A stretch of 64,000 nt of DNA, from assembly GCA_011109175.1 (NCBI GenBank), contig RDEW01000067.1, forward strand, positions 127,609-191,608. Reading direction: 5' to 3'. Made by a program: the position numbers and the translations under genes. The stretch's first letter is position 1, and each line of letters starts with the position of its first letter. Shown here one piece after another: positions 1,903 to 62,708 of the stretch. This DNA is from Dicyema japonicum. Lineage: Eukaryota > Dicyemida > Rhombozoa > Dicyemidae. The notes beneath the pieces were generated by a model. The model saw nothing but the letters and a program-made list of their open reading frames with translations, had not been told where the DNA came from and searched no databases.

Positions 1903-3564
1903 ATGAAAATGTCACGTGGCTATGGAATATTGAATTTGTTTTCAAACAAATTCTTACGTCGCGCTTCACTCAGTACTCAATATCCTCACAAATTCGTCAC
2001 AAATTACACGATAAACGAATTCTTGGACAGATTTTCTTTCTTAGGAAAGCTTGAGTCAACCTCTGAAGATGTTAATTTAGCTGGTTTTCTCGTCGATTTG
2101 ATGGTCAGGCCGCATTTCCAAAATCCGAGAGTTAGGCTCTAAGCTGACCTTCCTTGATATTGTTGATTCTGCTAAAAAGCTGCAAATTAAAGTCCAAAAG
2201 TACTCTTATTCATCACACTAGCCTACATCCCCCAAAACTCAACTGTGGGGACATTGTGGGGTGTGCTGGTTTCCCAAGTTGTGTTCATTTTTACATTAAG
2301 TTCGCACAAATACGGGTGAGCTGAGTCTGCAGGCGACCGACGTGAGCATTCTCTCCCCCTGTCTGCACGAGATTCCCAATCCTGTGATAGGATTTGAGGA
2401 CAAGGTTGGTTTGAGCTTATTTGGAAGGATAAGAGACGAAGACAGAGATATTTGGACATGCTCGTGAATAGTCAGGTTAGGGAGACGTTCTACACACGTG
2501 CCAAGATTATCCGTTTTATCCGTTCTTTCTTCGACAATTTGGACTTTTTGGAGGTATTAGAGTTGCTCATATTAGGTGGAGACCCCGATTCTGCTGGATG
2601 TCTCTAGTGGGGCTATAGCTAGGCCATTTGTGACTCGCCACAGCAACAAACGTGAACAACTATTTTTGAGGATAGCTCCAGAGCTCAATCTAAAGGTACA
2701 TTGACTGTAAAAGACATCAGAGGCTGGTTATTGGAGGTCTCAATCGAGTCTATGAGATTGGCAAACAATTCAGGGACGAAGGAACCGATTCCTCCCATAA
2801 CCCGGAGTTCACGACCTGTGAGTTCTATATGGCTTATGGGGATTACTTTGATGCCATGGAGATCACTGAACGTTTCCTTGCAAGTAAGAGGGTCTGTCTT
2901 TTTAGCTTTGTGTGACCACGTGGTCGGTTCTAGAGAGTTTTCGGTAGGGAATACAAGATTACGGATCTCCCCGCCTTTCGATCGGATCGACGTGATCCCT
3001 AGTCTTGAAGAGGAACTTGGATTTAAATTACCCGATCCGACCGAGTTAGACACACGTGGTTGTCTGAGATTGTGATTTCAGAGTCCCATGACCTACTGGA
3101 AAGGATATGTGCTGTGAATGACATTTTTTGTGCCCCTCCGAGGTCCCCGAGTCGCTTGATGGACAAGGTTGTGGTGTGTGTGGTCATTTATAGCTGGTGA
3201 AGCGATTTATTGAGCCAAAATGTATAAATCCGACATTTATTTGCAACCATCCTTCAATAATGTCCATTAGCCAAAGGGTGGAGTTTAGGTTAATTAAAGA
3301 CATCGAGATAGGCCCGGGATCTCTGAGAGGTTCGAGCTGTTTATGTGTGGCATGGAGTTGGTGAATGCCTACACAGAACAGAATGACCCCAAAGTGCAGT
3401 TGCAACAGTTTGTTGCTCAGAATGTAGACTGTGACAGGGATTACTGCCGGGCTTTAGAGTATGGACTTCCCCCAACTGTTGGTTGGGGTCTGGGGGTAGA
3501 CAGATTGGTCATGCTGATTACTAACAACTCCGATATTAAAGATGTCATTTTATTCCCGCGTTAA
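1903..3564 (+). CDS. KARS1: Lysyl-tRNA synthetase (class II), 11 exons
   Basis: Charges tRNA-Lys with lysine. Joining 11 exons gives about 476 residues matching animal LysRS from the anticodon-binding OB fold to the C-terminus. Exons: 1903-2083, 2109-2199, 2222-2280, 2301-2404, 2428-2553, 2576-2695, 2721-2883, 2906-3058, 3082-3167, 3194-3277, 3300-3564. The introns are GT...AG of 20-26 nt and phases agree throughout except at the last junction. Recognisable pieces: YPHKF start of the OB fold, [32 protein letters not shown], motif 2 (FRDEG then [19 protein letters not shown]), [15 protein letters not shown], and motif 3 ([11 protein letters not shown]) near the end. Residues 1-25 are basic, hydroxylated and lack acidic residues ([13 protein letters not shown]), suggesting a mitochondrial presequence and perhaps dual targeting. 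The exon 10/11 junction is off by one: removing one G from the run at 3276-3278 would give a perfect in-frame splice. The start is the first ATG in frame. Confidence 0.93.
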
Positions 3565-3855
3565 ATGTGGTTGTTACTTGAATTTTGTAAATTATTTGTG
3601 TTAATCCAACGTGTTTGCACTTTGCGTCTTCGTTGGACAAAGTCAACTTGTTTCTTAAGCAACTATGTCTTTATAGACTTGAACAGACCCTACACTCAAC
3701 ATTCTTTTGTTGGAGTCGTCGATACGATGGAATGGTAGCGGATTCCTCCGCTTTTGTCAACATCCAGTGAATCCAAAATGTTTGTCCGTGTCACGAGCTT
3801 AAAAATGAACGGTCTTCCCTTAGACTTCGTCGTCCTGTCAAGTAATCGTATAGAC
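3565..3855. other. Intergenic region downstream of LysRS
   Basis: Contains the LysRS 3' region and no recognisable gene. A minus-strand frame at 3696-3896 (DRTTKSKGRPFIFKLV...) is open in both duplicates (19098-19298) but matches no family I know and runs into the MITE terminus. This stretch is repeated at 18966-19257. Confidence 0.4.
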
Positions 3856-4430
3856 CAGTGGTTCCCATCCTGGGTTCCGCGAAATTTAAAAATCATTTAA
3901 TAATTTTTGGGATAAATTTGATGACGATTGGGTTCAAAATCCATTCAGTGAAGTAATACCAGCAAATCTAACATCAATTCAATATTCTTATTGCTTTGAC
4001 ATCAGAATCCAGTCAAATCAGATATATAAAATGAACCCCTTTTTAAATTTTGGAGAGCATAAATTTCAAAATACCATGATATCCCAAATGCTATACGTAA
4101 ACTATTACCTTTTCCAGCGACTTACTTATGAGAGTCAGGGTTTTCAATATATACATCGGTTCTTTTTCAATACATGCTTCACGAATTAAGGCTCTAAATG
4201 AATTAATGATTTTTTTGAATATTAGATCTAAAAATAAAAAAATGAACAATGCCGAATTTGTAAATATTATTATAAATTTGCAAAAGTACCTATACATCTA
4301 CCAAAACTTCCGTGATATGAGGAGACAGTTGTTAACAATAACTCCTAACGTTACACAACTATGCTATAGTGAAAAGTTACCTCAATGTTCATATTAAAAT
4401 TATTTTTGGATATTACGATTATTTTTGCAA
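3856..4430. mobile_element. hAT-type MITE, copy 1, right end deleted
   Basis: Begins with the hAT-like terminus cagtggttcccatcctgg, preceded by gtatagac (3848-3855), the same 8 bases that flank the complete element in copy 2. The internal minus-strand frame 4091-4297 (NSFRALIREACIEKEP...) resembles the ZBED/hAT transposase segment in front of HTEVRWLSRG, so it is an internally deleted derivative. The right terminus is missing: sequence jumps at about 4430 straight into a LINE fragment that lies 1.1 kb farther away in copy 2. Confidence 0.75.
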
Positions 4431-4990: not shown

Positions 4991-5040
4991 TTTCCCTTTC
5001 GAATTGTGAATGGAATAAATATATTGATTTATAATTATTA

Positions 5041-5380: not shown

Positions 5381-5399
5381 ATCTTTCCATTTTAGCATC

Positions 5400-6420: not shown

Positions 6421-6659
6421 AGAGAAGTCCGCATAATCCGATGAATTTAGATGGTTCTTAGCAACAACAACAGTTAACCAGTAACATCATTTCGTGTCTT
6501 TAAAATCTAAATATAATAATCAATGAATTCTTTAAAATAATAACAATTATTAAATCGGTCATAATTATTTTTTATAAATAAATATAAAAAATGATAAATT
6601 ATTGCAAAGTTTATGTTGGCAAACCAAACTTTATAATAAATGATTAATAAAATTAGGTA
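6421..6659 (+). promoter_or_regulatory. AT-rich upstream region of TMX3-like gene copy 1
   Basis: About 240 bases with no coding signal, very A/T rich from 6480 on. It separates the R2-like fragment from the ATG at 6660 and probably carries the promoter. Copy 2 has the same sequence at 22985-23221. Confidence 0.3.
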
Positions 6660-7579
6660 ATGATGATCTACTTGATACTTTTTCTGATTGACATTACTTT
6701 CCAGAAATTAAAACATCTAAATAATGAAAATTTCTTTGATGAAGTTAGCAAAGCCGATTGGTATATTGTTGAATTCAGTATTTATTTGGTTGTAATAATT
6801 TTAGACAAAAATTTTTTCTTATCAACTCTACATGAGGTGAGTTTACGTCATAAATTTTCCAAACTATCTAGAGAATTATCAGAACAAAATATAAAGTTCG
6901 GATATGTGGATGCAACTTTCAATAAAGAGTTGATCAAAAAATTAGGTATTGAAAGTTTACCATCATTTGTCCTATTTAAAAATGGAACAAAGTCAGAAGA
7001 ATATTATGGTAACTTTTATTTAGTTAAAGTAGGAGAACAAACAATTGAAAAAATAAGAGATTATCTTGAAGATACAACAGGTCAACATTGGTTAAATAAA
7101 TTCAACTATAAAGATATATTTCAGAGAAACAAAAAAGTTATTGTGATAATGGTTGATAAAAAATCATATAAAATTAATGAATTAATAACAGTAGCTAATA
7201 ATGCTAGTAAAGAACACAATGATGTTAAAATTTTTAATTTTAATTTCAGATGGATTTCTGCTTTTTGGATTCCAAAGATCGTCAATTCCAATATCTTGAA
7301 CATTTCTTTAAAGTACATGAATTTCCAGCCTTTGTTGGATTGAACACAGGAGCGGACAATAATAGAGTCAGTCGACACGTTCCAATTGGAACTTTTAATT
7401 CAACAAATCTAATCAATTACTTTAACAATTTTCCAAATTCTAAACTCAACGTAAATTTTTATTTCAGTGATATTTAGAACAGTCAATCCGACTTGTATTG
7501 GAATAATAAAACTGTCGAAGTTATCACATGGAGAAACTTTCGTGGATTGTTAGACCTGATTTGTATTAATCTTATCTAA
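6660..7579 (+). CDS. TMX3-like thioredoxin-fold ER protein without CxxC, copy 1
   Basis: Four exons (6660-6777, 6805-7223, 7250-7450, 7478-7579) with introns of 27, 26 and 27 nt give about 279 residues. The N-terminus MMIYLILFLIDITFQ looks like a signal peptide. The first thioredoxin domain follows (YIVEF ... KFGYVDATF ... LGIESLPSFVLFKNG, with the cis-Pro of the fold in SLPSF). A later domain has EFPAFVGLN in the place of TMX3 VPTVVVLN. After splicing, the position of the catalytic Cys-Gly-His-Cys reads about FLST, and no cysteine codon occurs in frame there, so the domain cannot do disulfide exchange and may be a chaperone or binding module. Intron 1 is a multiple of three and open, so it is inferred from alignment length. 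A downstream reading with introns at 7563-7585 and 7601-7630 would add a hydrophobic tail (WVSLWGLFLVF), possibly the membrane anchor. Confidence 0.8.
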
Positions 7580-8550: not shown

Positions 8551-8553
8551 TTT

Positions 8554-11740: not shown

Positions 11741-11742
11741 GT

Positions 11743-16260: not shown

Positions 16261-16473
16261 AATAATTCAACAGTTTTGAGTATTTTAGAATTGAATATGT
16301 ATAAAATCAGATCAAAAAATACAGGAACATTACGAGTATTTGCAGAATCGCACTTGACCCGTTATTAAATTTAATAAAATTTAATTTTTCTTATAAATAA
16401 TATTATTTTTTTTATAAAAGTCAAATAATTTTTTTAAATTAACATAATTATAAATTCAAAATTTTGTTAGAAA

Positions 16474-18821
16474 ATGGAAATACCCTCATTATATGCGCAT
16501 TGCCTTGAACATATTCGAACAGATTTTTATTTTAAAAAATGTGAAGAATTAAATGAAAAAACTAAAAACATGATTTTTAAAAGAGTATTTAAGGAACTGA
16601 TATATTCGAACGATCCATATCCAGATGAAGATCTATATGATCAATATACGTTTATAGACACGATCTCAGATGGAGTACAGAAAAATGTTTTCTGCGTTGA
16701 ATTCATTGATGACATTGACGTTAAGGATGTTGTCAAGATGATTCAAGTTTATCCGAATTTATCGAATATTAAATTATGCAAAATAACTTCATCACAAAAG
16801 AATCCTTTACTACCATTCTCACCCAATAATATCCAATCATTCTCACTTCAGAGTTATCATAACCCAGATATGCTACATTCCCTATTTATGACTGGATTTA
16901 ACAAAATAACATCCCTTGAACTTGGCTGTATACATTATAGAAAAAAAATATTTAAAAACAGCACAATTAAAATAATGGATAAACTGGAAAACATAAACTT
17001 TATGAACGTTGTAATTACTGACTTTGAAGAATTTGCTGCTAACTTAAACTGTCCAGAGGCCCCGTGGTTTAATTTATATCAAATTCAGTTGTTTTACGCA
17101 TATGAATAATTATTATGTTGTTGAAACAGATGATACTTGTAAAGTTAATTGTATTCCTCTTCTTGAAAAGACCATCAATCTTAAATTTCTCGATTTATCG
17201 GGATGTATTGTAGACATGGAAAAATTAACAAAGTTATCGATTATAATAATCATAGCTACTTAAGCAAAAAGGGATTGAAAAAAAATCATTTTTACCAACT
17301 TATAAGTTTCAATGTGAATATAAATGAATGGGTAATTTTTACGATATAATATAGATTGATAAAGAATTACTTATAAATAACTTAATCAGGCCTCTCTTCA
17401 CGTTCCAATGTGAACATAAAATGTATGAAATTTTTAATGGGATTTGCAATTCGAATTACAAATTCCGATATAAATTATTAAGTCGATTTTTGAAAGTATT
17501 TTGAACATATTAGTTTAGTTTTGTGTCTTAAACCTATGGATGAAAATGAAGATCCAGAAAATTTCTTGTAAGTGAATTGTTTTATCCAGCTTACTTTAGC
17601 CAGTATTATCAAAAACTATCAAATATCGTACTTAACCGTTGGTATGTGTTGATTTTATCTTTAGTATGATTTACGATGGTATTTGTAAAATTGTTAAGCA
17701 TTACCGATTATTTAGTTACGAAATGGTAATTTAATTTAAATTTTTAGAATGCTTGTAATTGTTTAAAGATATTTCACTTTTTAAAACCATGGGAAACATC
17801 AATTTTCGTTTGCACATTTTTATTTTAGTTGCCTTCGTTTTCATTCATTCTTAAAGGAACTTATTGTTGGTATGAAGACGATAGTTATGATTACGATTCA
17901 TGTCGTTCTATTTTAAAAGGCATGAGCATAGAATTTTTGACTTATCTTGGATATTCAGGTCTTGTGAAAGTTTAAATTAATGACGGGATAATTTTAGTAC
18001 TGCTGTGAATCTTGTGAAACATGCGACGAGAAGGGTTATGGCATATTCAATGTATTGAGATATCTTCTAGGTATTTGAAATATATTTATTTAGACGAAAA
18101 TGAAAGAAATGTGGATTTGTTTTGATTTGGATGGAATTACTCGAATTCAGAATTTTTTAGAAAGATTTCCATTAGAAGATCAAAACCATAATATCATAAT
18201 TCCAATTATTAAAGTCGTCGAAACTCTAGCTAAATTTCAAAAAGCTAGAGTTTACTTGCTACGTGTGGAATAATAGAAGATTTATTGTAAAATTAGTGTT
18301 TCATTAAAAGAAATCCTGATTACGATGAACTTAATTTTAATGCGCATTATTTTATCTACAGTTGCATGTGTCTGATATTGAGTGATCCAAATTATATTTT
18401 GCCCACATTTGAAAATTTGGATTTCGTTGATTTGAGTCCAAAAGGAATTCATTCTAAATAAAATTTGTCAATTTATAAAAGAAAATCCGTATGAAGCAGA
18501 TTGCGATATCCATAGTAGGTAATTTAATTTTCTATGTCGAAGGTCAATGATACCAACAATAAAATTGTTAAGTATGAATACAGACGAGCGAATTTGGCTT
18601 TGGGTAGTGTGGGAATTTGATAATTTAACCACTAAATATCGTTAATCTTTACTTTAATAATAGCAAATCTTTTGTGGACATGTTAGTTCCCCATAACATT
18701 ATTCAGAAAATTGAGAATATTTGTTGTCAATCCAATATGGAAGAGATCCATTCCTACGCTGCTATTTTTAGAACAAACTACAATGTTGTTATTTTTATGA
18801 TTTTAGGATTATTCATCGTAA
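16474..18821 (+). pseudogene. ZYG11/ZER1-like Cul2 ubiquitin-ligase receptor, copy 1 (frameshifted)
   Basis: ZYG11/ZER1 proteins recruit substrates to Cullin-2 ligases. Fifteen exons are inferred; introns at 17064-17088, 17233-17255, 17332-17354, 17482-17518, 17568-17589, 17642-17664, 17726-17747, 17808-17828, 17970-17997, 18071-18093, 18287-18310, 18519-18542, 18641-18663 and 18785-18806 (21-37 nt). The N-terminus SLYAHCLEHI is a perfect BC-box (SLxxxCxxxI), the Elongin-C docking motif. Leucine-rich segments follow (LGCIHYRKK, LKFLDLSGCIVDME), then ARM-like helices. The best match is DENERNVDLF, D-G-I, FLERFPLEDQNHNIIIPII and WLWVVWEF near the C-terminus, aligning with the ZER1 region around DETPDNCEMF. 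Exons 1-5 are intact. There are then indels near 17591, 18121 (2-base loss), 18250, 18440 and 18640, so this copy looks dead or badly assembled. Confidence 0.85.
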
Positions 18822-22960: not shown

Positions 22961-23221
22961 TTTAGATGGCTTTTAACAACAAGAGAAGTCCGCATAATCC
23001 GATGAATTTAGATGGTTCTTACCAACAACAACAATTAACTAGTAACATCATTTCGTATCTTTAAAATCTGAATATAATAATTGAATGAATTCTTTAAAAT
23101 AATAACAATTATTAAATCGGTCATAATTATTTTTTATAAATAAATATAAAAAATGATAAATTATTGCAAAGTTTATGTTGGCAAACCAAACTTTATAATA
23201 AATGATTAATAAAATTAGGTA

Positions 23222-24141
23222 ATGATGATCTACTTGATACTTTTTCTGATTGACATTACTTTCCAGAAATTAAAACATCTAAATAATGAAAATTTCTTTG
23301 ATGAAGTTAGCAAAGCCGATTGGTATATTGTTGAATTCAGTATTTATTTGGTTGTAATAATTTTAGACAAAAATTTTTTCTTATCAACTCTACATGAGGT
23401 GAGTTTACGTCATAAATTTTCCAAACTATCTAGAGAATTATCAGAACAAAATATGAAGTTCGGATATGTGGATGCAACTTTCAATAAAGAGTTGATCAAA
23501 AAATTAGGTATTGAAAGTTTACCAGCATTTGTTCTATTTAAAAATGGAACAAAGTCAGAAGAATATTATGGTAACTTTTATTTAGTTAAAGTAGGAGAAC
23601 AAAAAATTGAAAAAATAAGAGATTATCTTGAAGATACAACAGGTCAGCGTTGGTTAAATAAATTCAACTATAAAGAAATATTTCAGAGAAACAAAAAAGT
23701 TATTGTGATAATGGTTGATAAAAAATCATATAAAATTAATGAATTAATGAAAGTAGCCAATAATGCTAGTAAAGAACACAATGATGTTAAAATTTTTAAT
23801 TTTAATTTCAGATGGATTTCTGCTTTTTGGATTCCAAAAATCGTAAATTCCAATATCTTGAACATTTCTTTAAAGTACATGAATTTCCAGCCTTTGTTGG
23901 ATTGAACACAGGAGCGGACAATAATAGAGTCAGTCGACACGTTCCAATTGGAACTTTTAATTCAACAAGTCTAATCAATTACTTTAACAATTTTCCAAAT
24001 TCTAAACTCAACGTAAATTGTTATTTCAGTGATATTTAGAACAGTCAATCCGACTTGTATTGGAATAATAAAACTGTCGAAGTTATCACATGGAGAAACT
24101 TTTTTGGATTGTTAGACCTGATATGTATTAATCTTATCTAA
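23222..24141 (+). CDS. TMX3-like thioredoxin-fold ER protein without CxxC, copy 2
   Basis: Same structure as the gene at 6660: exons 23222-23339, 23367-23785, 23812-24012, 24040-24141. I count 11 amino-acid substitutions in about 279 residues between the two copies (for example PSF to PAF next to the cis-Pro, QHW to QRW, KDRQF to KNRKF) and no frameshift in either, so both may be expressed. The CxxC position is again FLST-like. The intron bases also vary slightly (the last intron has one substitution, attttta to attgtta), as expected for non-coding sequence. Confidence 0.8.
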
Positions 24142-33031: not shown

Positions 33032-33142
33032 GTCAACACCACAACAACTACACGTTTTTTCTTATAAATAATATTATTTTTTTATAAATGTCAAATAATT
33101 TTTTAAATTTACATAATTATAAATTCAAAATTTTGTTAGAAA

Positions 33143-35480
33143 ATGGAAATACCCTCATTATATGCGCATTGCCTTGAACATATTCGAACAGATTTTTATT
33201 TTAAAAAATGTGAAGAATTAAATGAAAAAACTAAAACATGATTTTTAAAAGAGTATTTAAGGAACTGATATATTCGAACGATCCATATCCAGATGAAGAT
33301 CTATATGATCAATATACGTTTATAGACACGATCTCAGATGGAGTGCAGAAAAATGTTTTCTGCGTTGAATTCATTGATGACATTGACGTTAAGGATGTTG
33401 TCAAAATGATTCAAGTTTATCCGAATTTATCGAATATTAAATTATGCAAAATAACTTCACAAAAGAATCCTTTACTACCATTATCACCCAATAACGTCAA
33501 ATCATTCTCACTTCAGAGTTATCATAACCCAGATATGCTACATTCCCTATTTATGACTGGATTTAATAAAATAACATCCCTTGAACTTGGCTGTATACAT
33601 TATAGAAAAAAAATATTTAAAAACAGCACAATCAAAATAATGGATAAACTGGAAAACATAAACTTTATGAACGTTGTAATTACTGACTTTGAAGAATTTG
33701 CTGCTAACTTAAACTGTCCAGAGCCCTGTGGTTTAATTTATATCAAATTCAGTTATTTTACGCATATGAATAATTATTATGTTGTTGAAACAGATGATAC
33801 TTGTAAAGTTAATTGTATTCCTCTTCTCGATAAAACCAACAATCTTAAATTTCTCGATTTATCGGGATGTATTGTAGACATGGAGAAATTAACAAAGTTA
33901 TCGATTATAATAATCATAGCTACTTAAGCAAAAAAGGATTGAAAAAAAATCATTTTGACCAACTTATAAGTTTCAATGTGAATATAAATGAATGGGTAAT
34001 TTTTACGATATAATATAGATTGATAAAGAATTACTTATAAATAACTTAATCAGGCCTCTCTTCACGTTCCAATGTGAACATAAAATGTATGAAATTTTAA
34101 TGGGATTTGCAATTCGAATTACAAATTCCGATATAAATTATTAAGTCGATTTTTGAAAGTATTTTGAACATATAGTTTAGTTTTTGTGTCTTAAACCTAT
34201 GGATGAAAATGAAGATCCAGAAAATTTCTTGTAAGTGAATTTGTTTTAATCCAGCTCTACTTTAGCCAGTATTATCAAAAACTAATCAAATATCGTACCT
34301 TAACCGTTGGTATGTGTTGATTTTATCTTTAGTATGATTTACGATGGTATTTGTAAAATTGTTAAGCATTGCCGATTATTTAGTTACGAAATGGTAATTT
34401 AATTTAAATTTTTAGAATGCTTGTAATTGTTTAAAGATATTACACTTTTTTAAACCATGGGAAACATCAATTTTCGTTTACACATTTTTTATTTTAGTTG
34501 CCTTCGTTTTCATTCATTCTTAAAGGAACTTATTGTTGGTATGAAGACGATAGTTATGATTACGATTCATGTCGTTCTATTTTAAACAGCATGAACATAG
34601 AATTTTTGACGTATCTTGGATATTCAGGTCTTGTGAAAGTTTAAATTAATGACGGGATAATTTTAGTACTGCTGTGAATCTTGTGAAACATGCGACGAGA
34701 AGGGTTGTGCATATTCAATGTATTGAGATATCTTCTAGGTATTTGAAATATATTTATTTAGACGAAAATGAAAGAAATGTGGATTTGTTTATTGATTGGA
34801 TGGAATTACTCGAATTCAAATTTTTTAGAAAGATTTCATTAGAAGATCAAACCATAATATCATAATTCCAATTATTAAAGTCGTCGAAACTCTAGCTAAA
34901 TTTCAAAAAGCAAGAGGTTTACTTGCTACGTGTGGAATAATAGAAGATTTATTGTAAAGTAGTGTTTCATTAAAAGAAATCCTGATTACGATGAACTTAA
35001 TTTTAATGCGCACTATTTTATCTGGAGTTGCATGTGTCTAATACTAGGAGATCCAAATATTATTTTTCCAACATTTTAAATTTGAATATCGGTGATTTGA
35101 GTCCAAAGGAATTCATTCTAAATAAGATTTGTCAATTTATAAAAGAAAATCCGTACGAAGCAGATTGCGATATCCATAGTAGGTAATTTAATTTTCTATG
35201 TCGAAGGTCAATGATACCAACAATAAAATTGTTAAGTATGAATACAGACGAGCGAATTTGGCTTTGGGTTGTATGGGAATTTGCTAATTTAACCACTAAA
35301 TATTCGTTAATCTTTACTTTAATAATAGCAAATCTTTTATGGACATGTTAATTCCGCATAACATTATTGAGAAAATTGAGAATATATGTTGTCAATCCAA
35401 TATGGAAGAGATCCATTCATACGCTGCTATTTTTAGAACAAATTACAATGTTGTTATTTTTATTATTTTAGGATTATTAA
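33143..35480 (+). pseudogene. ZYG11/ZER1-like receptor, copy 2 (frameshifted)
   Basis: Same 15-exon plan as at 16474. A two-base loss in exon 1 (actaaaacatg at about 33230) stops the frame after residue about 33, which is why the longest frame starts only at 33238. One base is lost at the end of exon 1, so the 25-nt intron (33728-33752) can be read through in frame (EPCGLIYIKFSYFTHMNN). Further indels lie near 34287 (a stop), 34800 and 34830. The 3' part is the cleanest of the three copies: the exon 13/14 junction (TTKYS-KSFMDML) is intact only here. Element I lies 88 bases upstream and may separate it from its promoter. Confidence 0.8.
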
Positions 35481-39881: not shown

Positions 39882-42800
39882 TTATGCTATTTTAAGCGTA
39901 ACCATATAAGAATCTTCTACAGCTCCATGGGAATCGCTTATAAACACGTATATTTCTGCCTTTCCTTTGATTCCTGGCAAAAGACTGAACTTCATTCCAA
40001 TGTAGTTGCTCTCATATGGTCCTAGGATCATGATTAGTGGTTTTAATTCCAGCAGATCTGGTCGTGTACAGCTCAACTTGAACGTTTTCTCCACAGAATA
40101 GGTATTTCGATAACTCACACGCTTAAATACGTCGGAAATTCCGCATTTTTCCGCATCCAGCAAAACCTCAAAGACCTTTCCATATTATGGGATGCCAACC
40201 TTAGACACTGGCGGAGGAATAACCGTGGTATTGATGAACCAATAATGAAGTAGCTGACTATTGCTCACATCAACAAGGCTGATGTAATACTTTCTCTTAG
40301 CAACAATCAAAGGTTTCAGACAGAGAGTGCATTCGGAAGTGCAATCAGCCGAAAGGGTTGTGGGTGCGTCCTCGACTGAGACCTCAAACGGATGGGAGAC
40401 AAAGAATTTAACGTTTCTCTTTGATTTATATCCCCTTGTGGTCAATGAAACGATTACTTGATTAGCTGTTGGGATTTAGTGACCTGTCCTAGGACACACG
40501 TGAGATCTACTCGTTGACAGGCCTGAATGTATATTCCAATAGAATGCAAAGGACTTGTCATGAACTTGTCCTCGTACACAAACACAACCACGTGTTTTAT
40601 CGATGGGATTTCCCCAACCATCGTCTACACTAGTTATTTGGAATACTTTGACAATTAGTTCCTTCGGGTATGTCCTTGTTTGCAGATCCAAACTCACCGA
40701 ATCAGAGATGGAGCACTTCACGACCATGGTGGAAGGATTTTTGAAGTCTTCGTTCGTCGGGATTACGATATTTTTCTTGAACATTTCGTTTCCCGATCCC
40801 ATAAATCTGAACACGTGGGTAATTGGACATGATTTTATTTCTACAGAGAGATTTACTACGAGAATTCGGCATTCGTCCGAAATGAAGTTTATCTGGAATA
40901 TTTAAGAAGGTTACCTTCGTCGTCTTAGTCAGTTGAGGGGTAGTTTCCTCCAAATTTTGAATTTCCCTGTTGGTCGTCTTTAAATATCGAAACTATTTAC
41001 CGGTGGGAATTTGGTCCCCTGAACCGACAAGGCCCGGTAGACGAACGGGACAAACACAGTCTCGTCTGGGGAGAGGAACAAAATGGGACATTTTTTCTCA
41101 GAGGAATAGCTCATAAAGTTCCGTTCAATGGCAGTCCGAATATTCAAAAGTGTCTTATAGTGATTCCACTCTTCGTAGTTCGTTAGAACAGAAAGACATG
41201 GATCGGCAAACTCTACTCTTATTAATTGCTTGTTTTTTGTGAAATTGTGGACTTCAACCTCGAAAAACTCAGCCCTCCCCACAGTAGTTGTGATGGTCTT
41301 TGTGAGTGAGATATTCGATTCCAGTGCATTCTGAATTTGTTCGTATTTATTTTGACTTCTGTAGGCCTGGACAGTCCGCAAGTCCCTCTGTCTGTTAAAA
41401 GTAAGCGATCCAACCCCCTGAAATATACCCAAATCCTACAATCCAAAACTATCAGACTCCAAGGTCCTGACCTTTTCCATTCTTTCCATTTTACGTTTCC
41501 TGACTGGATCCATTATTGACTCTGAACACGTGGCGATGTCATGCCAATTCGTTCTTCTACTAGCGATGGGTGAAGTAAGGAAACACGTATTCCCCGATTC
41601 TAAACGAAAGTAGGGAATAATACTGATAACTCCCCAAAATCAAGCGATTTGCTCATGTTATCGGTTTTCTCGGTATTTTTTAGTTTCAGTTCGTTCAGGG
41701 CCAAAGGATGTCCAATATTTATGGTTTGCAGTATTAACTTTCCAATCGTGTTTGTCTCTTCCAGGGAACTGTCCACGTGGCTTATTATGTCCAACTGGGA
41801 GGAACATTCAACAGCCTCTTTCGACTGGCGGAGGAATACCTAAGATTCCTTAATGCTAAAACGTGGAGTGGCAGTTGACAAAACCCAATAAGCATGAGGG
41901 AAGTCGCGTCCCATATGTCAATGTGGAGGTAATGGGCCTTTAAGTATTTTATGAAATTCAATTTTTCCTCTCCCACATATTTAGAATCACACAAACACAG
42001 TCGATAGCCGGGGATCGACGTATTTTCGAGTTTAATCAGCGAAATTTGCTCTTCTCCCTTCATAAAATCAAGCAAAATTCTACAAATCAAGCATAACCGT
42101 ACTTATCAGTTGTTACAAATTCCTGGTCGTAAAATTGGTAGGTAAAAAATATCGTCTTCAAGGAAGAAATGATTGAAAACGTGTCCCCCATTTTTGGGTT
42201 TCTAAAATTATGCGTTATTTACTTGGAGAAGGCCAAAAATCTAATCGATATTACGTTCCTTTGGAGAATATCTCCCATTTCAACCTCCTGGTCGAGGATC
42301 ATGGATTTGGTTAGACTCACGGAGAAAGGAGAGTTTCCCTCTCTGTCAGTTATCGGGGGAAATCCGGCAGAATGGAGGACGGCGAGCTCATTTCTTGACG
42401 GTCCAACGAACTTTCCCCTACTCTCTCAGGCCATTGAATACAAAGGAGATGAATTCAAAGTCATCTTCCCAAATTTATCCAAAGAAATAGGAATTTCCTT
42501 CAAGTCGACTTCATCTACGAATTTTTCTTCCTTCGTCTTAACCTTACTATTCAAATATACAGGAATCATTGATTGAGGTCGATTCTGTGGTGAAGTAGCA
42601 GGGATCTGGTCACTAAGATCGTATTCGAAGGTTAAATGTCCAATAGTTTTGTTTTTGATTTGATTTTCTGAAGAAAAAATCAAGGCTGAAATGGGACTCC
42701 CACACGAATCTACAGTACTCCACCTTAAAATTACTTGATAACAGGGGACAAGTAGAGGCATCATTCGCAATTATCGGACTCCAAAGACTCCAAGCAGTTA

Positions 42801-44012
42801 TCACAGATTTATATTCGGGTTTCTGGACTTGGTTAGGAACCTTCGTAACATTGGAATGACTACTTTGGGGGTGACTACCAACTTAAGATTATATTCCAGT
42901 TTAAAAGTCAGGACAACATCTTTGCTCACAAAGAAATTCTCCATGTATACTTTATTGTCTGAAACAAGAGAGATATGACTTATCATATTTTGAGTACCAT
43001 TTTGAAGTTGTAACTTTTTTGGCTGGTCAATCATTCTCCAAGAATTGAATAATTGCATCTATATTCCACAAATTATAATACATAGAGATTAATGTCTTCG
43101 ACGATGACTTCGATTTGCTGTTTATTTCTCGAATATTCGGAATCTTGAATTCCCTTGCGTAACTCGTCTTTGAGATTTTCGCTCAGAATTAGAGAAATGT
43201 TGAAAATTTTTAATTTTTGCGGCTTTTGGTTCTGAGTTACATTTTCTACAATCATAGACGGCACAAACTGGTCACTTTCAAACCTTTGATTTCCTCAGTC
43301 GACCCCACTAGGGTGTCCAGGGGAATTAAAGGTTCTATTTGAGGGACAGATGTGCACGTGGATATATTGCAAACAGCGGAATCTCTAGTTTTGGCTTTAC
43401 TGAGCTGATCTTGTAGAACTGAATTTATCACAAAAACTCGGATACCTTCGGTTGACGACAGTAAACTCAAACATCTGGGAGATCCCCTGTATATTGACAA
43501 CCTTGAATAGATAAAACCGTAAACGTTGATTGCCCGTTCATATTTTGGCAGAGATCCGACAGAGAAGCCGTAAACCACCCAACAGATCTCTCCAAAGAGG
43601 TCTCGTGGGCGATGATCTCGATTACTATCCTTGTCGACAAATTCTTAAATCCCTGCTTTATCATTACGCCCTTTTGAAATGATCCCCATTTACTTGGTTA
43701 TAGTTGACCTCTGTCGAGTTATTCGCTGTTAGTGTCGGTCCCTTGTATGTTCTCCCTGTGAAAACTCCGAAGGTTGTGTCAAAAATGGAATAATTAAGGC
43801 TAAATAGATTTGAAGAGTTATTCTAGACTTATAATATGGGAAACATTAGGAATTTGAAATTTATCGACTCGTATAATGAATATATCAGTATTTTTGCTGG
43901 TTGCATATAAATTGGAATCTTTGTATGATTGGGGGGTCTTGCGACTTTGGCAAACTCTTAAATAGTCGTCAACATTCTGTGAGTATGCTTTTTCGTCAAT
44001 TTGTGGCTTCAT
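39882..44012 (-). CDS. NPHP4: Nephrocystin-4-like protein, copy A
   Basis: NPHP4 acts at the ciliary transition zone. About 17 exons join to roughly 1240 residues (vertebrate NPHP4 is about 1430). Introns (minus strand): 43823-43844, 43656-43693, 43502-43524, 43268-43308, 43059-43081, 42863-42882, 42710-42734, 42421-42441, 42202-42222, 42080-42102, 41840-41862, 41600-41623, 40978-41000, 40893-40914, 40466-40495, 40176-40199; lengths 20-41 nt. Diagnostic stretches: SIFDTTFGVFTGRTYK (N-terminal C2-like), LSIYRGSPRCLSLL, KTIFFTYQFYDQEF, HIDIWDATSLMLIG, then RKRKMERMEKVR and DLRTVQAYRSQNKYEQ, GRAEFFEVEVHN, HVFRFMGSGNEMFKKN, KFFVSHPFEV, and at the end RVSYRNTYSVEKTFKLSC and AEIYVF. Start at ATG 44012. 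Two blemishes: one G short at the 41624 junction, and a frame slip near 41450 (DSFGL stop). Otherwise all phases agree. Confidence 0.88.
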
Positions 44013-47261: not shown

Positions 47262-47264
47262 GCA

Positions 47265-51478: not shown

Positions 51479-52548
51479 TTAAACTCGTGACCTGTGAATA
51501 TTTTTATCCTCTCTGTTATTGAGAAAACAATTATCTCCATCGTTTTTGGTTACTTCATAGATGGTACAGTCAAGCTTATCGTAAAGTGCCATTATACGAT
51601 GAGCAGGATTTTTGTCATGATCTCATCCTTTATGGACCTCGTCACCAATTTTTAAAGTTTCGTCGTCGTTTCTCCACCTTCTTTTTTCAATCATTTTTCG
51701 TGCAGCTACTTTGGTATATATTCGTGTCTCTTCTCTTGCTTCATCCACTTCATAAGACAGAAAATTTGACAAATCCTCCGGTATTGCTTCCTGTGGATAC
51801 TTACATCCCATAAATATAAAGAATGGCATTTGTTTCGTTGCCTCGTGTATCGAAATGTTGTAATCAAAAAACATTTTTTTAAATGAAGAACATAGCTCCC
51901 ACTCTCTCCACTGGAAGGTAATATAGAGGAAATCCATTTTTATTGATTGGTTTAATCTTAATTTATAATTTATTTTTTTACCTTTTTACTTGACCTTGTA
52001 TCCATGGAGCACACCATTTACCATGAATATACTTTACTCGAGGTTCCATTAACATGTCGGTCATCAATTTATTTTTAAATTCTTTTCCGTTATCCATGTG
52101 TAATAATAGCGGGGGCCATATGTATAAATTTTTTTGAAAAGTTTCAACTACTTCCTTTGAATTTTTGGAGTAGAGAGTTTCGACCACGCCAAATTTGCTG
52201 AAACAATCAACAACAGTCAAAAGCTACAGAAAATTAATGAGAAAAGACACATATGAATAACCCAAGTTTTTGTCAGAATAACGTCACAAATCGATCAGAT
52301 CGGCTATATATCTGTCGCGTGGGTAATTTACCACAATTGGTGTTATCGGAGGTTTTGTTTCCAAAAGCCTCTTAGACGTAATTTATAATTTGTTTCCTAC
52401 AAATGAGCAATTATAAATATACGTAGATATATGGTACATCGTTTTCAAACGTAAAACTACTGGCAAGCCTTTTATAACGCCTCTTATCAGATATTGTCAG
52501 ATCTGAAGGGAACAAGTCAAATTCTTTAAATTCCTTAATTATTTTCAT
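51479..52548 (-). pseudogene. Ginger-like transposase (integrase fold), copy 3
   Basis: ATG at 52548 (MKIIKEFKEFDLF, then KRRYKRLASSFTFENDVPY). Introns: one ending about 52373; 27 nt between GYSY and LLTVVDCFSKF (about 52221-52247); 25 nt (51962-51986) between VKR and LNQSIK. The core motif RDRYIADLIDL carries the first catalytic Asp, MDNGKEF the second; the catalytic Glu of VERFN is Lys here (VKRLN), and a CGA in copy 2 is TGA here after LIDL. The tail ATKQMPFFIFMG and KIGDEVHKG is followed by a TGA and then an in-frame C-terminal segment to 51479. Catalytically dead as read. Confidence 0.78.
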
Positions 52549-52585
52549 ATCGTAAAGAAACAATCGAACAACAATAACCATCAGT

Positions 52586-55500
52586 CGGTGGCGTTAAAAC
52601 TCTCTCGAGTTGGCAAAAATGTTGAAAGGAAAAAAGGAGAAGGGTCACTTGCATTACCTGATGGTATGAATGTAATTCTTGCCATATCCGAGAGCGTTGT
52701 GGCAGATGACCCAAAAGAATGGGCGAGGCAGGTAGTCCTGCAGGTACGTAGCAGGCTATCTCGAATGCCCTGGAATGGATGGCCATACTTGGCGGAGCTC
52801 TGCAGTGGCAGATTCAGTACTGCTATATCTGTGAGTGAACTCAAGAAGATGGCTGTAGGCAAAGAGGGTACTGGTCTAAAGGGGCGGGGACCAGGTGACC
52901 ACAACTGTCAAAGAGAGCACGAGCACCAGAGCTGTGATACGTTGCAGCTCAAGCATGTTTATGAGGTCTTTGCGCGGAATCTCGCTGCAGCGGCAGATGT
53001 CCCACTTGAGGACCGTAGATTTACCCGCAAGATTCCTCATTGTAAGGTTAACGGTGTAGTGTTAACCTGCATCAATAAGGCTGTGGCTTATGCGGTGGAG
53101 GCTAAGCCAGTAGGGTCATTGGGTGACATCTCCCTAGTGCTGTATGCAGCACAGATCACCTATGAGGAATTGACGGACAAGCCCAGACCACCCAGTAAAT
53201 GGAGGGAGCAGATCTGTGCCAAGATTGCTTGGAGACAGACTGAGCTGGAAGCACTGGAGGGGCACATAAGTAGTGTGGCGAGAGGGGTTAGAGGAAAAGC
53301 ACCGGCTATAGTAAAGGGGCTAATTAGTAAACTCCGTGTTCCCAAATGGGACCTCAAAGAGTTGAGGAGGGCAAAGGTGGAGTTAGAGGGGGCAATAATG
53401 GTGTATAAGAGGAAACTCTATACACATGAAAGTCGGTGTAAGAGAAGGAGAGAAAATAATCTGTTTGAGTTTAATCGCAGATTGTTTTACCGTCGCCTAC
53501 ACGAAAATGGCCATAGTGTATGTTCCCAGCAGGACGCGGAAATGCTTTCCACATGGGGTAGTATGTGGGAGGCTAAACCACGCAGAGGAAATGCGTGGAA
53601 TGTCCCGTACAGCGCCGCTCCTTTCTTGGCGGAATTTTCGATTTTCGCAAGAAATTTGAGGCGGTAGTGAGACATCTCTCTGATTGGAAACGACCGGGGT
53701 CGATAAAGTTTATAATTTCTTTATCAAAAGATGCACTTCATTACACGAGTCTTATGTGTGTGTATTACAGAAAAGCATCACTAACCCGGAAACGATTCCT
53801 GATTGGGCATGCACAGGGACAACTTATTTGATCCCAAAGCTGGACAACCCCCAGTCTGCTGCAGATTATCGACCGATAACCTGCATGCCAACCCTGTATA
53901 AGCTGATGACCAAATTGGTGGCTAATGAGGTCAGGAGCTTTGTAGACGCAAATGGGATTCTCTCCGAGAATCAGTTGGGAACTGTGCGAAATTGTCAGGG
54001 GGCAAAAGAGCAGGCTTTGATCAACAAATGCCTTTCTGTGTCTCACGGAAACTCACTTTTGTCTATGTGGGTGGATGTGAAGAAGGCTTACGATTCAGTT
54101 GATCATTCTTACCTTGTCGAGTGCCTACACAGTCTGTGTATGCCTGTGTGGTTCATCAGCTTTGTAGTGGCTGTGATGAATAGGTGGAGTATTCATCTGA
54201 ACTATAATAGGCACCGGATAGGCGAGGTAAAACTCAAGAGGGGGATCCTTCAGGGGATAGCATGTCTCCGCTACTCTTTGTTCTCTGTTTGGAGCCATTG
54301 AGTCGCCGCCTCAATGACCGGTTTGAGCAAATACCAGTTCATTGTGAAGGGGTCTGTTTCAGTACAAATCACCTTCTTTTTATCGATGACTTGAAGATGT
54401 ATGCTCGAACAGCCGAGGAGCTCTACTCCATGGGGGTCTGTGCCAGGGAATTCTTTGAGAGTATAGGGCTAGATTTGAATTATTCAAAGTCTGCGACTAA
54501 CACGCAAGTATGTAGCGAGTTAGTAAGAGTCCTAGAGGAACACGAAGGATATAAGTATCTGGGTGTTACCGAATCTCCAAAGTCCCTTATAATGCCTGAG
54601 ACAAAGCGACAAATTACTGAAGGCATCCGTAAAAGAGCAGCGTTATTGTGTAAGACGTCTCTAAATGCAAGGAATTTGTTCCTAGCATTAAATGAGTATG
54701 CTGTCTCGCTGCTAAACTACTACATAGGTGTTGTGGAGTTTGAGCCCAAAGAGTATGATGAGATGGATGTTATGATCCGTGGAGTACTCAGAGAGAACCA
54801 TGTCCATGTGTTGGCAGCCAATAAGGAGAGACTATATTTACCCCGTGATAAATTCGGCCGTGGACTGTGTGGAGTAGTCCAACTAAGTGAGCGTATCCTA
54901 ATGCGAATGCACGACACCCTGATAGCTGGGTCAAGTGTGTCTGCTAGGAAGCACGCCATAATAACGACCGAGAAAACACGGGCAACCCACCTAGGCACTA
55001 TCAGACCTTTTTTGTCTGCTAAGTATGGTGTTGATGATGGTGGGCTAGTAAATGTGAAGGCGTTGATCGAATTACAATATAATAATTTGATGGAAAAGAT
55101 CAACTTAAAAAGCCTTCATAAGGTCCTCTTCAGAGCATTGGACAACCCACATGTCGACCTTAAGTCGTCGACAATATGGCTAAAATACGGTGACAACTCA
55201 CCTCGATCGGAGGCGTTGTACACGTATATGCAAGACCGCAATATTTTTTGGGGTCGATCAACAAATACATGTCCCCACTGTAAGTCAAGGAGCATGTCGG
55301 TTGATCATTTAGCCACTCGATGTGGATCCATGCTCTGCCACGACTATGTGTGGAGGCACAACGAGGTAGTAAGGAGTCTTCATCTTCTACTATGCAATAA
55401 GTATGGTATTCGCCACACCAGAAAGTTGCGGACTCATAAGGTGCAATCTGTAGTAGAGAACACCAGGGTCCAAATTAAGGTAGACAGTGTTATCCGTACC

Positions 55501-56008
55501 TCGGTGCTAGTCAAGCACAATAAACCGGACATTGTGGTACACGATAAGGAGTCTGGCCAAGTCCTTATCATAGAGGTTGGCATCACGTCTCAAGACCGTT
55601 TGCAGACTGTGGAGGTGGAGAAAAAAAGGAAGTATGACTTTCTTGCAAACGAGATGGGGCAGATGCTTGGTTGCAAGGTCCTCGTTATTCCTATAGTAAT
55701 GACGTGGGAAGGAATTGCAACAAAGTACCACAAGGGTTATCTGAAGCAGTTGGGGGTAGATAGGAAGCTCCAGGCCTATCTACAGTCCACTGTGTTAAAG
55801 CGGACCCTAGAGAGCCTGACACTGGAGTATAGGAGGCAGAGCCCTGAGATGCCATATGGGCAGAGGGTTCAATTAGACAAAGCGCTCTCGGAGTTGTTTC
55901 AGCAACCAGAATCGAACCTGCCTGAGGAGGCTGGCGAACAGGCAGGCGAGGAAGGTTGTTGATTAAATATATTAACTTTTTTATTGTTTGTTAAATAAAG
56001 TGGGGTGT
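52586..56008 (+). mobile_element. Element II: R2-like (REL-endonuclease) retrotransposon, frameshifted
   Basis: About 3.4 kb present only in this Ginger-like copy. The empty site is near 37240, where about 70 bases differ, so insertion was probably accompanied by a small deletion. It is related to Element I but belongs to another subfamily: its GC content is clearly higher than its surroundings, and its 3' tail gttaaataaagtgg followed by a T-run is shared with the truncated copies at 45.1 and 63.8 kb. It is 5'-truncated by about 45 codons relative to Element I; no ATG precedes 52663 in frame. Confidence 0.88.
52588..55962 (+). pseudogene. Element II polyprotein (RT and REL endonuclease), 3 frame breaks
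   Basis: Segments: 52588-53667 (N-terminal region through ENNLFEFNRRLFYRRL), a short frame with FEAVVRHLSDWKRPG, then 53684-54301 with NFFIKRCTSLHESYV, YRPITCMPTLYKL, WVDVKKAYDSVDHSY (motif A) and RGILQG, and 54262-55962 with MSPLLF (motif B continued), LLFIDDLKMYA (motif C), CPHCKSRSMSVDHLATRC (knuckle), HNKPDIVVHD, IIEVGITSQD and EKKRKYDFL (endonuclease). Breaks are near 53645, 53695 and 54256; the last is exactly one missing G in QG(D)SMSP. All catalytic residues remain, so only the frame is damaged. Confidence 0.88.
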
Positions 56009-58180: not shown

Positions 58181-58182
58181 AC

Positions 58183-58400: not shown

Positions 58401-58569
58401 AATCTGGTAGACAAGAATTACCTTCGTCCAAAAGTCCATCTTTTAGATTCGAACTCACCACAGTCGATCCGATGTCATCTGACATGTTCATCCAAGGCCT
58501 TTACGATATTTTTGGTCTTGATGTTTATTAAGCTATTTTTTACACAAAAATTGTAAACAATTAATTATT

Positions 58570-61500
58570 TTTATTATGCTATTTAAGTTAACGCAATGTA
58601 ACCATAATCTTCTACAGCTCCATGGGAATCGCTATAAACACGTATATTTCTGCCTTTCCTTTGATTCCTGGCAAAAGACTGAACTTCATTCCAATGTAGT
58701 TGCTCTCATATGGTCCTAGGATCATGATTAGTGGTTTTAATTCCAGCAGATCTGGTCGTGTACAGCTCAACTTGAACGTTTTCTCCACAGAATAGGTATT
58801 TCGATAACTCACACGCTTAAATACGTCGGAAATTCCGCATTTTTCCGCATCCAGCAAAACCTCAAAGACCTTTCCATATTATGGGATGCCAACCTTAGAC
58901 ACTGGCGGGGGAATAACCGTGGCATTGATGAACCAATAATGAAGTAGCTGACTATTGCTCACATCAACAAGGCTTATGTAATACTTTCTCTTAGCGACAA
59001 TCAAAGGTTTCAGACAGAGAGTGCATTCGGAAGTGCAATCAGCCGAAAGGGTTGTGGGTGCGTCCTCGACTGAGACCTCAAACGGATGGGAGACAAAGAA
59101 TTTAACGTTTCTCTTTGATTTTATATCCCCTTGTGGTCAATGAAACGATTACTTGATTAGCTGTTGGGATTTAGTGACCTGTCCTAGACACACGTGAGAT
59201 CTACTCGTTGACAGGCCTGAATGTATATTCCAATAGAATGAAAAGGACTTGTCATGAACTTGTCCTCGTACACAAACACAACCACGTGTTTTATCGATGG
59301 GATTTCCCCAACCATCGTCTACACTAGTTATTTGGAATACTTTGACAATTAGTTCCGTCGGGTATCTCCTTGTTTGCAGATCCAAACTCACCGAATCAGA
59401 GATTGAGCACTTCACGACCATGGTGGAAGGATTTCTGAAGTCTTCGTTCGTCGGGATTACGATATTTTTCTTGAACATTTCGTTTCCCGATCCCATAAAT
59501 CTGAACACGTGGGTAATTGGACACGATTTTATTTCTACAGAGAGATTTACGACGAGAATTCGGTATTCGTCCGAAATGAAGTTTATCTGGAATATTTAAG
59601 AAGTTACCTTCGTCGTCTTAGTCAGTTGGGGGGTAGTTTCCTCCAAATTTGAATTTCCCTGTTGGTCGTCTTTAATTATCGAAACTATTTACCGGTGGGA
59701 ATTTGGTCCCCTGAACCGACAAGGCTCGGTAGACGAACGGGACAAACACAGTCTCGTCTGAGGGAGAGGAACAAAATGGGACATTTTTTTCTCAGAGGAA
59801 TAGCTAATAAAGTTCCGTTCAATGGCAGTCCGAATATTCAAAAGTGTCTTATAGTGATTCCACTCTTCGTAGTTCGTTAGAACAGAAAGACATGGATCGG
59901 CAAACTCTACTCTTATTAATTGCTTGTTTTTTTGTGAAATTGTGGACTTCAACCTCGAAAAACTCAGCCTTCCCCACAGTAGTTGTGATGGCCTTTGTGA
60001 GTGAGATATTCGATTCCAGTGCATTCTGAATTTGTTCGTATTTATTTTGACTTCTGTAGGCCTGGACAGTCGCAAGTCCCTCTGTCTGTTAAAGTAAGCG
60101 ATCCAACCCCCTGAAATATACCCAAATCCTACAATCCCGATACTATCAGACTCCAAGGTCCTGACCTTTTCCATTCTTTCCATTTTACGTTTCCTGACTG
60201 GGATCCATTATTGACTCTGACACGTGGCGATTGTCATGCCAATTCGTTCTTCTACTAGCGATTGGGTAAAGTAAGGAAACACGTATTCCCCGATTCTAAA
60301 CGAAAGTAGAGAATAATACTGATAACTCCCCCAAAATCAAGCGATTTGCTCATGTTATCGGTTTTCTCGGTATTTTTTAGTTTCAGTTCGTTCAGGGCCA
60401 AAGGATGTCCAATATTTATGGTTTGCAGTATTAACTTTCCAATCGTGTTTGTCTCTTCCAGAGAACTGTCCACGTGGCTTATTATGTCCAACTGGGAGGA
60501 ACATTCAACAGCCTCTTTCGACTGGCGGAGGAATACCTAAGATTCCTTAATGCTAAAACGTGGAGTGGCAGTTGACAAAACCCAATAAGCATGAGGGAAG
60601 TCGCGTCCCATATGTCAATGTGGAGGTAATGGGCCTTTAAGTATTTTATGAAATTCAATTTTTCCTCTCCCACATATTTAGAATCACACAAACACAGTCG
60701 ATAGCCGGGGATCGACGTATTTTCGAGTTTAATCAGCGAAATTTGCTCTTCTCCCTTCATAAAATCAAGCAAAATTCTACAAATCAAGCATAACCGTACT
60801 TATCAGTTGTTACAAATTCCTGGTCGTAAAATTGGAAGGTAAAAAATATCGTCTTCAAGGAAGAAATGATTGAAAACGTGTCCCCCATTTTTGGGTTTCT
60901 AAAATTATGCGTTATTTACTTGGAGAAGGCCAAAAATCTAATTGATATTACGTTCCTTTGGAGAATATCTCCCATTTCAACCTCCTGGTCGAGGATCATG
61001 GATTTGGTTAGACTCACGGAGAAAGGAGAGTTTCCCTCTCTGTCAGTTATCGGGGGAAATCCGGCAGAATGGAGGACGGCGAGCTCATTTCTTGACGGTC
61101 CAACGAACTTTCCCCTACTCTCTCAGGCCATTGAATATAAAGGAGATGAATTCAAAGTCATCTTCCCAAATTTATCCAAAGAAATAGGAATTTCCTTCAA
61201 GTCGACTTCATCTACGAATTTTTCTTCCTTCGTCTTAACCTTACTATTCAAATATACAGGAATCATTGATTGAGGTCGATTCTGTGGTGAAGTAGCAAGG
61301 ATCTGGTCACTGAGATCGTATTCGAAGGTCAAATGTCCAATAGTTTTGTTTTGATTTGATTTTCTGAAGAAAAAATCAAGGCTGAAATGGGATCCCACAC
61401 GAATCTACAGTACTCACCTTAAGATTACTTGAGAACAGGGGACAAGTAGAGGCATCATTCGCAATTATCGGACTCCAAAGACTCCAAGCAGTTATCACAG

Positions 61501-62708
61501 ATTTATATTCGGGTTTCTGGACTTGGTTAGGAACCTTCGTAACATTGGAATGACTACTTTGGGGGTGACTACCAACTTAAGATTATATTCCAGTTTAAAA
61601 GTCAGGACAACATCTTTGCTCACGAAGAAATTCTCCATGTATACTTTATTGTCTGAAACAAGAGAGATATGACTTATCATATTTTGAGTACCATTTTGAA
61701 GTTGTAACTTTTTTGGCTGGTCAATCAATCTCCAAGAATTGAATAATTGCAGCTATATTCCACAAATTATAATACATAGAGATTAATGTCTTCGACAATG
61801 ACTTCGATTTGCTGTTTATTTCTCGAATATTCGGAATCTTGAATTCCCTTGCGTAACTCGTCTTTGAGATTTTCGCTCAGAATTAGAGAAATGTTGAAAA
61901 TTTTTAATTTTTGCGGCTTTTGGTTCTGAGTTACATTTTCTACAATCATAGACGGCACAAACTGGTCACTTTCAAACCTTTGATTTCCTCCGTTGACCCC
62001 ACTAGGGTGTCCAGGGGAATTAAAGGTTCTATTTGGGGGATAGATGTGCACGTGGATATATTGCAAACAGCGGAGTCTCTAGTTTTGGCTTTACTGAGCT
62101 GATCTTGTAGAACTGAATTTATCACAAAAACACTGATACCTTCGGTTGACGACAGTAAACTCAAACATCTGGGAGATCCCCTGTATATTGACAACCTTGA
62201 ATAGATAAAACCGTAAACGTTGATTGCCCGTTCATATTTTGGCAGAGATCCGACAGAGAAGCCGTAAACCACCCAACAGATCTCTCCAAAGAGGACTCGT
62301 GGGCAATGATCTCGATTACTATCCTTGTCGACAAATTCTTAAATCCCTGCTTTATCATTACGCCCTTTTTAAAATGATCCCCCATTTACTTGGTTATAGT
62401 TGACCTCTGTCGAGTTATTCGCTCTTACTGTCGGTCCCTTGTATGTTCTCCCTGTGAAGACTCCGAAAGTTGTGTCAAAAATGGAATAATTAAGGCTATA
62501 TAGATTTGAAGAGTTATTCTAGACTTATAATATGGGAAACCTTAGGAATTTGAAATTTATCGACTCGTATAATGAATATATCAGTATTTTTGCTGGTTGC
62601 ATATAAATTGGAATCTTTGTATGATTGGGGGGTCTTGCGACTTTGGCAAACTCTTAAATAGTCGTCAACATTCTGTGAGTATGCTTTTTCGTCAATTTGT
62701 GGCTTCAT
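58570..62708 (-). pseudogene. NPHP4: Nephrocystin-4-like protein, copy B (decaying)
   Basis: Collinear with copy A, with the same exons and introns, but with more damage. The donor of the 21-nt intron (61118-61138) is AT instead of GT, exposing a TGA. Single-base losses lie in the exon with SCGSPISAL (near 61390), in the A-run near 61350, in DLRTVQ (near 60072) and near 58633 in the last exon, whose C-terminal codons are scrambled (attatggttacattgcg). Some introns differ in length from copy A (24 vs 25, 21 vs 22, 29 vs 30, 40 vs 38 nt) without shifting the exons, which supports their intron status. Copy B conversely keeps the G missing from copy A at the LDFGG junction. Confidence 0.83.

Follow-up and report, generated by a model that had tools for sequence, protein, structure and literature searches.

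The window analyzed here is a stretch of 64,000 nucleotides (nt) from Dicyema japonicum (contig RDEW01000067.1, positions 127,609 to 191,608; GC 0.368). It harbors a lysyl-tRNA synthetase (LysRS)-like gene and genes for which a preliminary description had proposed the names TMX3-like, ZYG11-like and NPHP4-like. These genes are interrupted by ultrashort introns that begin with GT and end with AG, and the 22-nt introns carry an adenine at a near-fixed place that is likely to be the branch point. The name LysRS is borne out by the spliced product, which scores 393 bits to PDB 4dpg (query residues 25-477), presumably the human enzyme, and whose best named matches in a large protein set are animal LysRS at 475 bits (best 120 of 7993). 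By eye, its N-terminus resembles a mitochondrial presequence. Including the window copy, the assembly searched (64.67 Mb in 191 contigs) has three LysRS-like genes or more.

For the intron borders, raw DNA was aligned with a homologous protein, allowing gaps whose ends matched one fixed dinucleotide pair; splice sites were not modelled in any other way. GT-AG ranked first of the 256 end pairs in all seven genes treated in this way: the window LysRS, the two other LysRS copies, mitochondrial AspRS, AsnRS, a G-protein alpha subunit and endonuclease IV. Summed over the seven, the gain for GT-AG was 4255 compared with 3625 for the second-best pair; for the window LysRS alone GT-AG reached 833, the second of the 256 pairs 739 and the alignment without gaps 238. 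A gene finder that used the end dinucleotides as its sole splice model, with a codon table trained under GT-AG models, called 59 introns of 22-23 nt for GT-AG and 3-16 for each of 15 alternative pairs. On the exon side, the 46 homology introns retained from the alignments show a clear context, with A or C at -3 (0.83), A at -2 (0.61), G at -1 (0.59) and G at +1 (0.48). Within the intron the 5' splice site is weak, positions +3 to +6 summing to 0.9 bits (n=122), and the exon side reads AG/G, the slash marking the junction.

These 46 are the GT-AG introns of 20-27 nt among 58 aligned gaps and comprise three of 21 nt, 18 of 22 nt, 13 of 23 nt, four of 24 nt, seven of 25 nt and one of 26 nt. The 12 gaps dropped were four with GC-AG ends, which look like misalignments, three with GT-AG ends below 20 nt and five longer than 27 nt. 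A 17-nt call by the aligner at 3283-3299 was likewise set aside because a nearby frame break seems to mislead the aligner; by eye, 3278-3299 fits the LysRS protein better. A self-trained gene finder that treated all lengths between 15 and 45 nt alike, run on the window plus 222 kb of other sequence, gave 221 introns (duplicate gene copies included) with a peak at 22-23 nt (37 and 45 introns, respectively). Because universal amino-acid frequencies alone made too weak a coding model, lower penalties and self-training were used. The main intron class thus lies at about 20-30 nt, as for dicyemid introns.

Avoidance of lengths divisible by three has been reported for Paramecium. Only 7 of the 46 homology introns have such a length, a count that the peak at 22-23 nt makes uninterpretable; it may reflect this peak or a similar avoidance, which we do not claim, and the gene finder itself is biased against stop-free introns of these lengths.

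The observation of ultrashort introns in the preliminary description is confirmed, and its view of them as real, dicyemid-like spliceosomal introns in many genes is supported. All six intervals that it offered as examples run from GT to AG with the lengths claimed. Two of them (2084-2108 and 2554-2575) were returned by LysRS protein alignment alone. Three more (42202-42222, 43502-43524 and 7224-7249) are gene-finder introns, of which 43502-43524 had 16 nt in one run and 7224-7249 appeared only in an earlier run, the TMX3-like gene receiving no call in the self-trained one. The sixth, 17233-17255, has its GT and AG in the sequence and is absent from the gene-finder output. The claim that more than 40 introns can be placed is plausible; our own list runs to 25 of 20-27 nt (Table 1), two of which recur in identical form from 23786 and 33897, and the second NPHP4-like copy comes on top.

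Table 1 Genes and introns of the window. Positions of A are counted back from the last base of the intron.
Feature	Coordinates	Strand	A position	Basis or remark
LysRS-like gene	1903..3564	+		about ten introns of 22-26 nt; frame break near 3260
LysRS intron, 25 nt	2084..2108	+	-8	homology
LysRS intron, 22 nt	2200..2221	+	-7	homology
LysRS intron, 23 nt	2278..2300	+	-8	homology
LysRS intron, 23 nt	2405..2427	+	-9; none at -7/-8	homology
LysRS intron, 22 nt	2554..2575	+	-7	homology
LysRS intron, 25 nt	2696..2720	+	-7	homology
LysRS intron, 22 nt	2884..2905	+	no usable A	homology; sole exception among 18
LysRS intron, 23 nt	3059..3081	+	-7	homology
LysRS intron, 26 nt	3168..3193	+	-8	homology
LysRS intron, 22 nt	3278..3299	+	-7	reading of sequence; outside the 18 counted
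TMX3-like intron, 26 nt	7224..7249	+	-7	gene finder; identical copy from 23786
ZYG11-like intron, 23 nt	17233..17255	+	-7	sequence only; identical copy from 33897
Predicted intron, 23 nt (NPHP4-like in the preliminary description)	43502..43524	-	-7	gene finder
Predicted intron, 23 nt	43246..43268	-	-7	gene finder
Predicted intron, 23 nt	43059..43081	-	-7	gene finder
Predicted intron, 23 nt	42841..42863	-	none at -7/-8	gene finder
Predicted intron, 25 nt	42710..42734	-	-7	gene finder
Predicted intron, 24 nt	42418..42441	-	-7	gene finder; AT replaces GT in second gene copy
Predicted intron, 21 nt	42202..42222	-	-7 and -8	gene finder
Predicted intron, 23 nt	42080..42102	-	-8	gene finder
Predicted intron, 23 nt	41840..41862	-	-7 and -8	gene finder
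Predicted intron, 23 nt	40978..41000	-	-8	gene finder
Predicted intron, 22 nt	40893..40914	-	-7	gene finder; second gene copy one base shorter
Predicted intron, 22 nt	40625..40646	-	-7	gene finder
Predicted intron, 23 nt	40435..40457	-	-8	gene finder
Second NPHP4-like copy	58611..62385	-		introns almost unchanged; numerous one-base indels relative to first copy, exons included

The preliminary description had found no obvious conserved branch point. This does not hold, as 17 of the 18 homology-defined 22-nt introns carry A at -7, which is position 16 from the 5' end (P = 2e-8, against a background A frequency of 0.31 from 1620 GT-N18-AG strings). With T at -9 in 14/18 and a pyrimidine at -6 in 16/18, these introns read yUnAy, the pattern of metazoan branch sites. 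Using a gene finder without any splice model beyond GT and AG, we obtained A at -7 in 23/26 22-nt introns (0.88). The 23-nt homology introns have it in 9/13, and in a wider, partly modelled set (homology introns plus those of a gene finder that modelled the donor and, of the acceptor, positions -3, +1 and +2 only) 40/48 introns of 23 nt have their A at position 16 or 17, where single-base frequency would predict about half. Similarly, 13 of 16 window introns called without an acceptor model have A at -7 or -8, compared with about half expected. Even of the six examples in the preliminary description, five have the A at -7 and the sixth has it at -8. The signal is a place and not a sequence word, and judging from the base at this position the A is likely the branch point.

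Several observations weigh against introns with a positional branch point. GT-AG leads narrowly in one of the seven genes, endonuclease IV (451 versus 446), and in the gene-finder comparison, with its GT-AG-trained codon table, the total score of GT-AG (1796.8) lies below those of TG-GA (1803.7) and AT-AC (1800.6), and gap number does not favor GT-AG either. Among the 25-nt homology introns A at -7 falls to background (2/7), and the 24-27 nt introns (n=32) have no dominant position, the best column reaching 0.47 A. In a free motif scan, called introns are hard to tell from random GT-AG strings, with 12% of them scoring above the 95th percentile of the random set. The 25 listed window introns have A at -7 in 16 cases and at -7 or -8 in 22, counts to which an acceptor model already trained towards A at -7 contributed. 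Lastly, the homology-supported 22-nt intron 2884-2905 has no A from position 6 to the final AG and lends itself to testing whether branching can use another base or lie close to the 5' end.

The predicted small nuclear RNAs (snRNAs) of the major spliceosome are canonical for U2 and U6, and nearly so for U1, as read from their genomic copies. U2 gave 25 matches, 22 of them over the cut-off, and GUAGUA is present in 6/6 copies read; U6 gave ten, nine over the cut-off, with ACAGAGA in 6/6. None of the 11 U1 matches exceeds the Rfam cut-off, the best reaching 69 compared with 69.5 bits, and one U1 locus (L047) gave no U1 match at the gathering threshold in a full Rfam scan. The sequence ACUUACCU is found in 8/9 U1 copies read, the ninth having one changed base.

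The A at -7 might instead belong to an extended 3' splice-site signal that is read by a protein, with the true branch elsewhere or variable. Such a signal would be compatible with the single 22-nt intron of 18 that lacks the A, with the weak motif scan and with a 2008 survey (PMC2483917), which reports no branch-point signature in dicyemid, Paramecium and nucleomorph introns. The survey's table scored six-base motifs, in the dicyemid case in 41 introns, and a signal that is a place rather than a word may explain why none was noticed. On the other hand, the T two bases before the A and the pyrimidine one base after it are what pairing with U2 GUAGUA predicts. A base belonging to the 3' splice site should also keep its distance from the 3' end, whereas 25-nt introns of the wider set favor A at positions 16 and 17 (9 and 7 of 16) over -7 and -8 (6 and 5 of 16), a small difference, and in the 25-27 nt introns pooled, A counted from the 5' end occurs in 16/22 (position 16 or 17) compared with 14/22 counted from the 3' end (-8 or -7). 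We consider an extended 3' signal unlikely.

We favor, with a probability of roughly 0.85, that these are U2-type introns reduced nearly to the minimum length that the spliceosome can handle, in which the branch A of a 22-nt intron would be position 16 and recognition would proceed as follows. U1 would read the 5' splice site chiefly through the exon side (AG/GT) and the first three intron bases, and U2 would pair around A16 through its normal GUAGUA. Recognition would thus be by intron definition, with U1 anchored mostly on the exon and U2 on A16. The lariat would then form and the first downstream AG would be taken, the 3' splice site being fixed by its short distance to the branch. In a 22-nt intron A16 lies 15 nt after the first G and four nt before the terminal AG. 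These four nt are too few for a polypyrimidine tract, so the role of U2AF would be limited to a U-rich stretch upstream of the branch at most, or to reading the AG. The preliminary description had called recognition unusual, which is true of the geometry and not of the snRNA pairing elements read (U2 6/6, U6 6/6, U1 8/9). Its interpretation is partly supported.

More tentatively, and with somewhat less than even confidence, we propose that U1 and U2 would lie next to each other on the RNA with hardly any space between them, or would bind in turn, and that a retained minor spliceosome handles AT-AC introns of about 50 nt. The U12 snRNA is predicted at C68:163471-163599 with 85 bits (cut-off 53; 3/14 control genomes match, none over the cut-off) and U6atac at C34:237761-237858 with 37 bits (cut-off 33; 8/14 controls match, none over the cut-off). 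A full Rfam scan gave the same families for both loci. AT-AC introns, one of 48 and one of 52 nt, interrupt genes for an ArfGap protein and a polyprenyl synthase (contigs C137 and C148), and Pfam matches to the spliced products (PF01412, 9e-21; PF00348, 3e-14) extend over the splice junctions. These introns are about twice as long as the major ones, a length that tells little of U12-type introns generally because the search pattern (RTATCCTT and TCCTTRAY) was limited to short spacings. The pattern gave 22 matches compared with 17 for a reversed-pattern control, so that most may be chance; of seven read, two were followed into coding context, and only these are claimed. By eye, a locus on contig C126 looks like a third AT-AC intron. 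Together, the snRNA matches and AT-AC introns indicate that a minor spliceosome survives alongside the ultrashort introns.

Of the protein factors, a U2AF2-like gene was found exon by exon, with a best piece of 82.6 bits and none reaching the whole-protein cut-off of 310, a search in which two bacterial controls also match below the cut-off. Its product contains an RRM and ends in what we take to be a UHM-like domain, on the basis of a weak match to an RBM17 query. An SF1-like gene was found by its helix-hairpin domain (one match, 6e-21). A UHM match on contig C126 was dropped as a candidate RBM17 because reading of the gene shows RRM domains ahead of the UHM, an order that we take to be that of PUF60.

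These proteins bear on the possibility that a factor of the SPF45/RBM17 type replaces U2AF2, as it does in a subset of human short introns (PMC8363638). In the human introns there is likewise not enough space for U2AF2 to bind a normal polypyrimidine tract, which is the situation that SPF45 serves, and short-intron ciliates retain RBM17 (PMC12862383). Nevertheless, the human RBM17/SPF45 UHM query matched only the PUF60-like and U2AF2-like loci; because intron-split exons limit this search, the absence of RBM17 is not demonstrated. A replacement of U2AF2 seems to us quite improbable. The human 56-nt HNRNPH1 model intron also has a wider geometry, with 27 nt from the 5' splice site to the branch compared with 15 nt here (PMC8363638).

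Ultrashort introns as such are known from dicyemids, the group that the preliminary description had named. Dicyema japonicum is described with 67.5 Mb, 36.7% GC and a mean intron of 38 bp (PMC6736024), Dicyema acuticephalum with introns of 26.2 +/- 1.9 nt (n=16; PMC2222250) and a further Dicyema sp. with a median intron of 27 nt, about two thirds being shorter than 30 nt (PMC6543705). The introns studied here resemble them in length, genome size, GC and presence in many genes; they differ in the near-fixed adenine, a fixed branch point not being described in the available portions of these papers. An actin search, by contrast, named no dicyemid among 120 listed matches. Among the best-ranked matches in the literature on dicyemid introns and the spliceosome, there was no branch-point description for dicyemid introns.

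A parallel in arrangement comes from Stentor coeruleus, whose 15-16 nt introns have a near-fixed branch A (10th or 11th base, the 10th in 15-nt introns) with a weak consensus and canonical GUAGUA and ACAGAGA, much as for the 22-nt introns here (PMC9505925). Stentor is a ciliate with shorter introns, whereas here an animal has the A at position 16 of 22, with more spread in longer introns. Trichomonas, Giardia and Yarrowia share the short, fixed branch-to-AG distance without a polypyrimidine tract in between (PMC2483917). By the measure of that survey the distance is about 3 here, 2 in Yarrowia and 4 in Trichomonas or Giardia. In contrast to the weak motif and many introns found here, these organisms combine sequence-conserved branch motifs with intron-poor genomes (PMC2483917). 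Perhaps a similar minimum was reached independently.

Three genes in the window are doubled. The NPHP4-like copies (39.9-43.7 kb and 58.6-62.4 kb) are identical in 3969/4118 alignment columns and give no clean intron test because their single-base indels fall in exons too. The other two lie at 6657-7343 and 23219-23905, and at 16471-17109 and 33235-33927. Tandem duplication or unmerged alleles are perhaps the cause. That the gaps are not introns and represent assembly indels, pseudogenes or ciliate-style eliminated DNA, for which the frame break near 3260 in the window LysRS and the many indels between the NPHP4-like copies might speak, is barely credible, as random indels or eliminated DNA would neither place GT-AG first of 256 in seven genes nor make the lengths peak at 22-23 nt with the A in a fixed place.

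As for the remaining names, TMX3-like agrees with a thioredoxin domain in the product, NPHP4-like was not confirmed by Pfam or homolog search (nothing at E 0.001) and ZYG11-like was not confirmed by Pfam in the one open frame tested. The window further contains two sets of long retroelement frames, 29490-33061 (-) and 52507-55962 (+), with a reverse transcriptase domain (PF00078) in one tested frame of each.

Annotation pipelines with a larger minimum intron length would overlook most of the introns described here. A survey of minor introns (PMC10639083) excluded introns below 30 nt, and its main text contains no mention of dicyemids; because of this exclusion, genomes like the present one deserve re-examination for minor introns. 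If the 22-nt introns of an animal indeed have their branch A at one set position, one could measure directly how closely an animal spliceosome with canonical snRNA elements can space the 5' splice site, the branch and the 3' splice site and still work.

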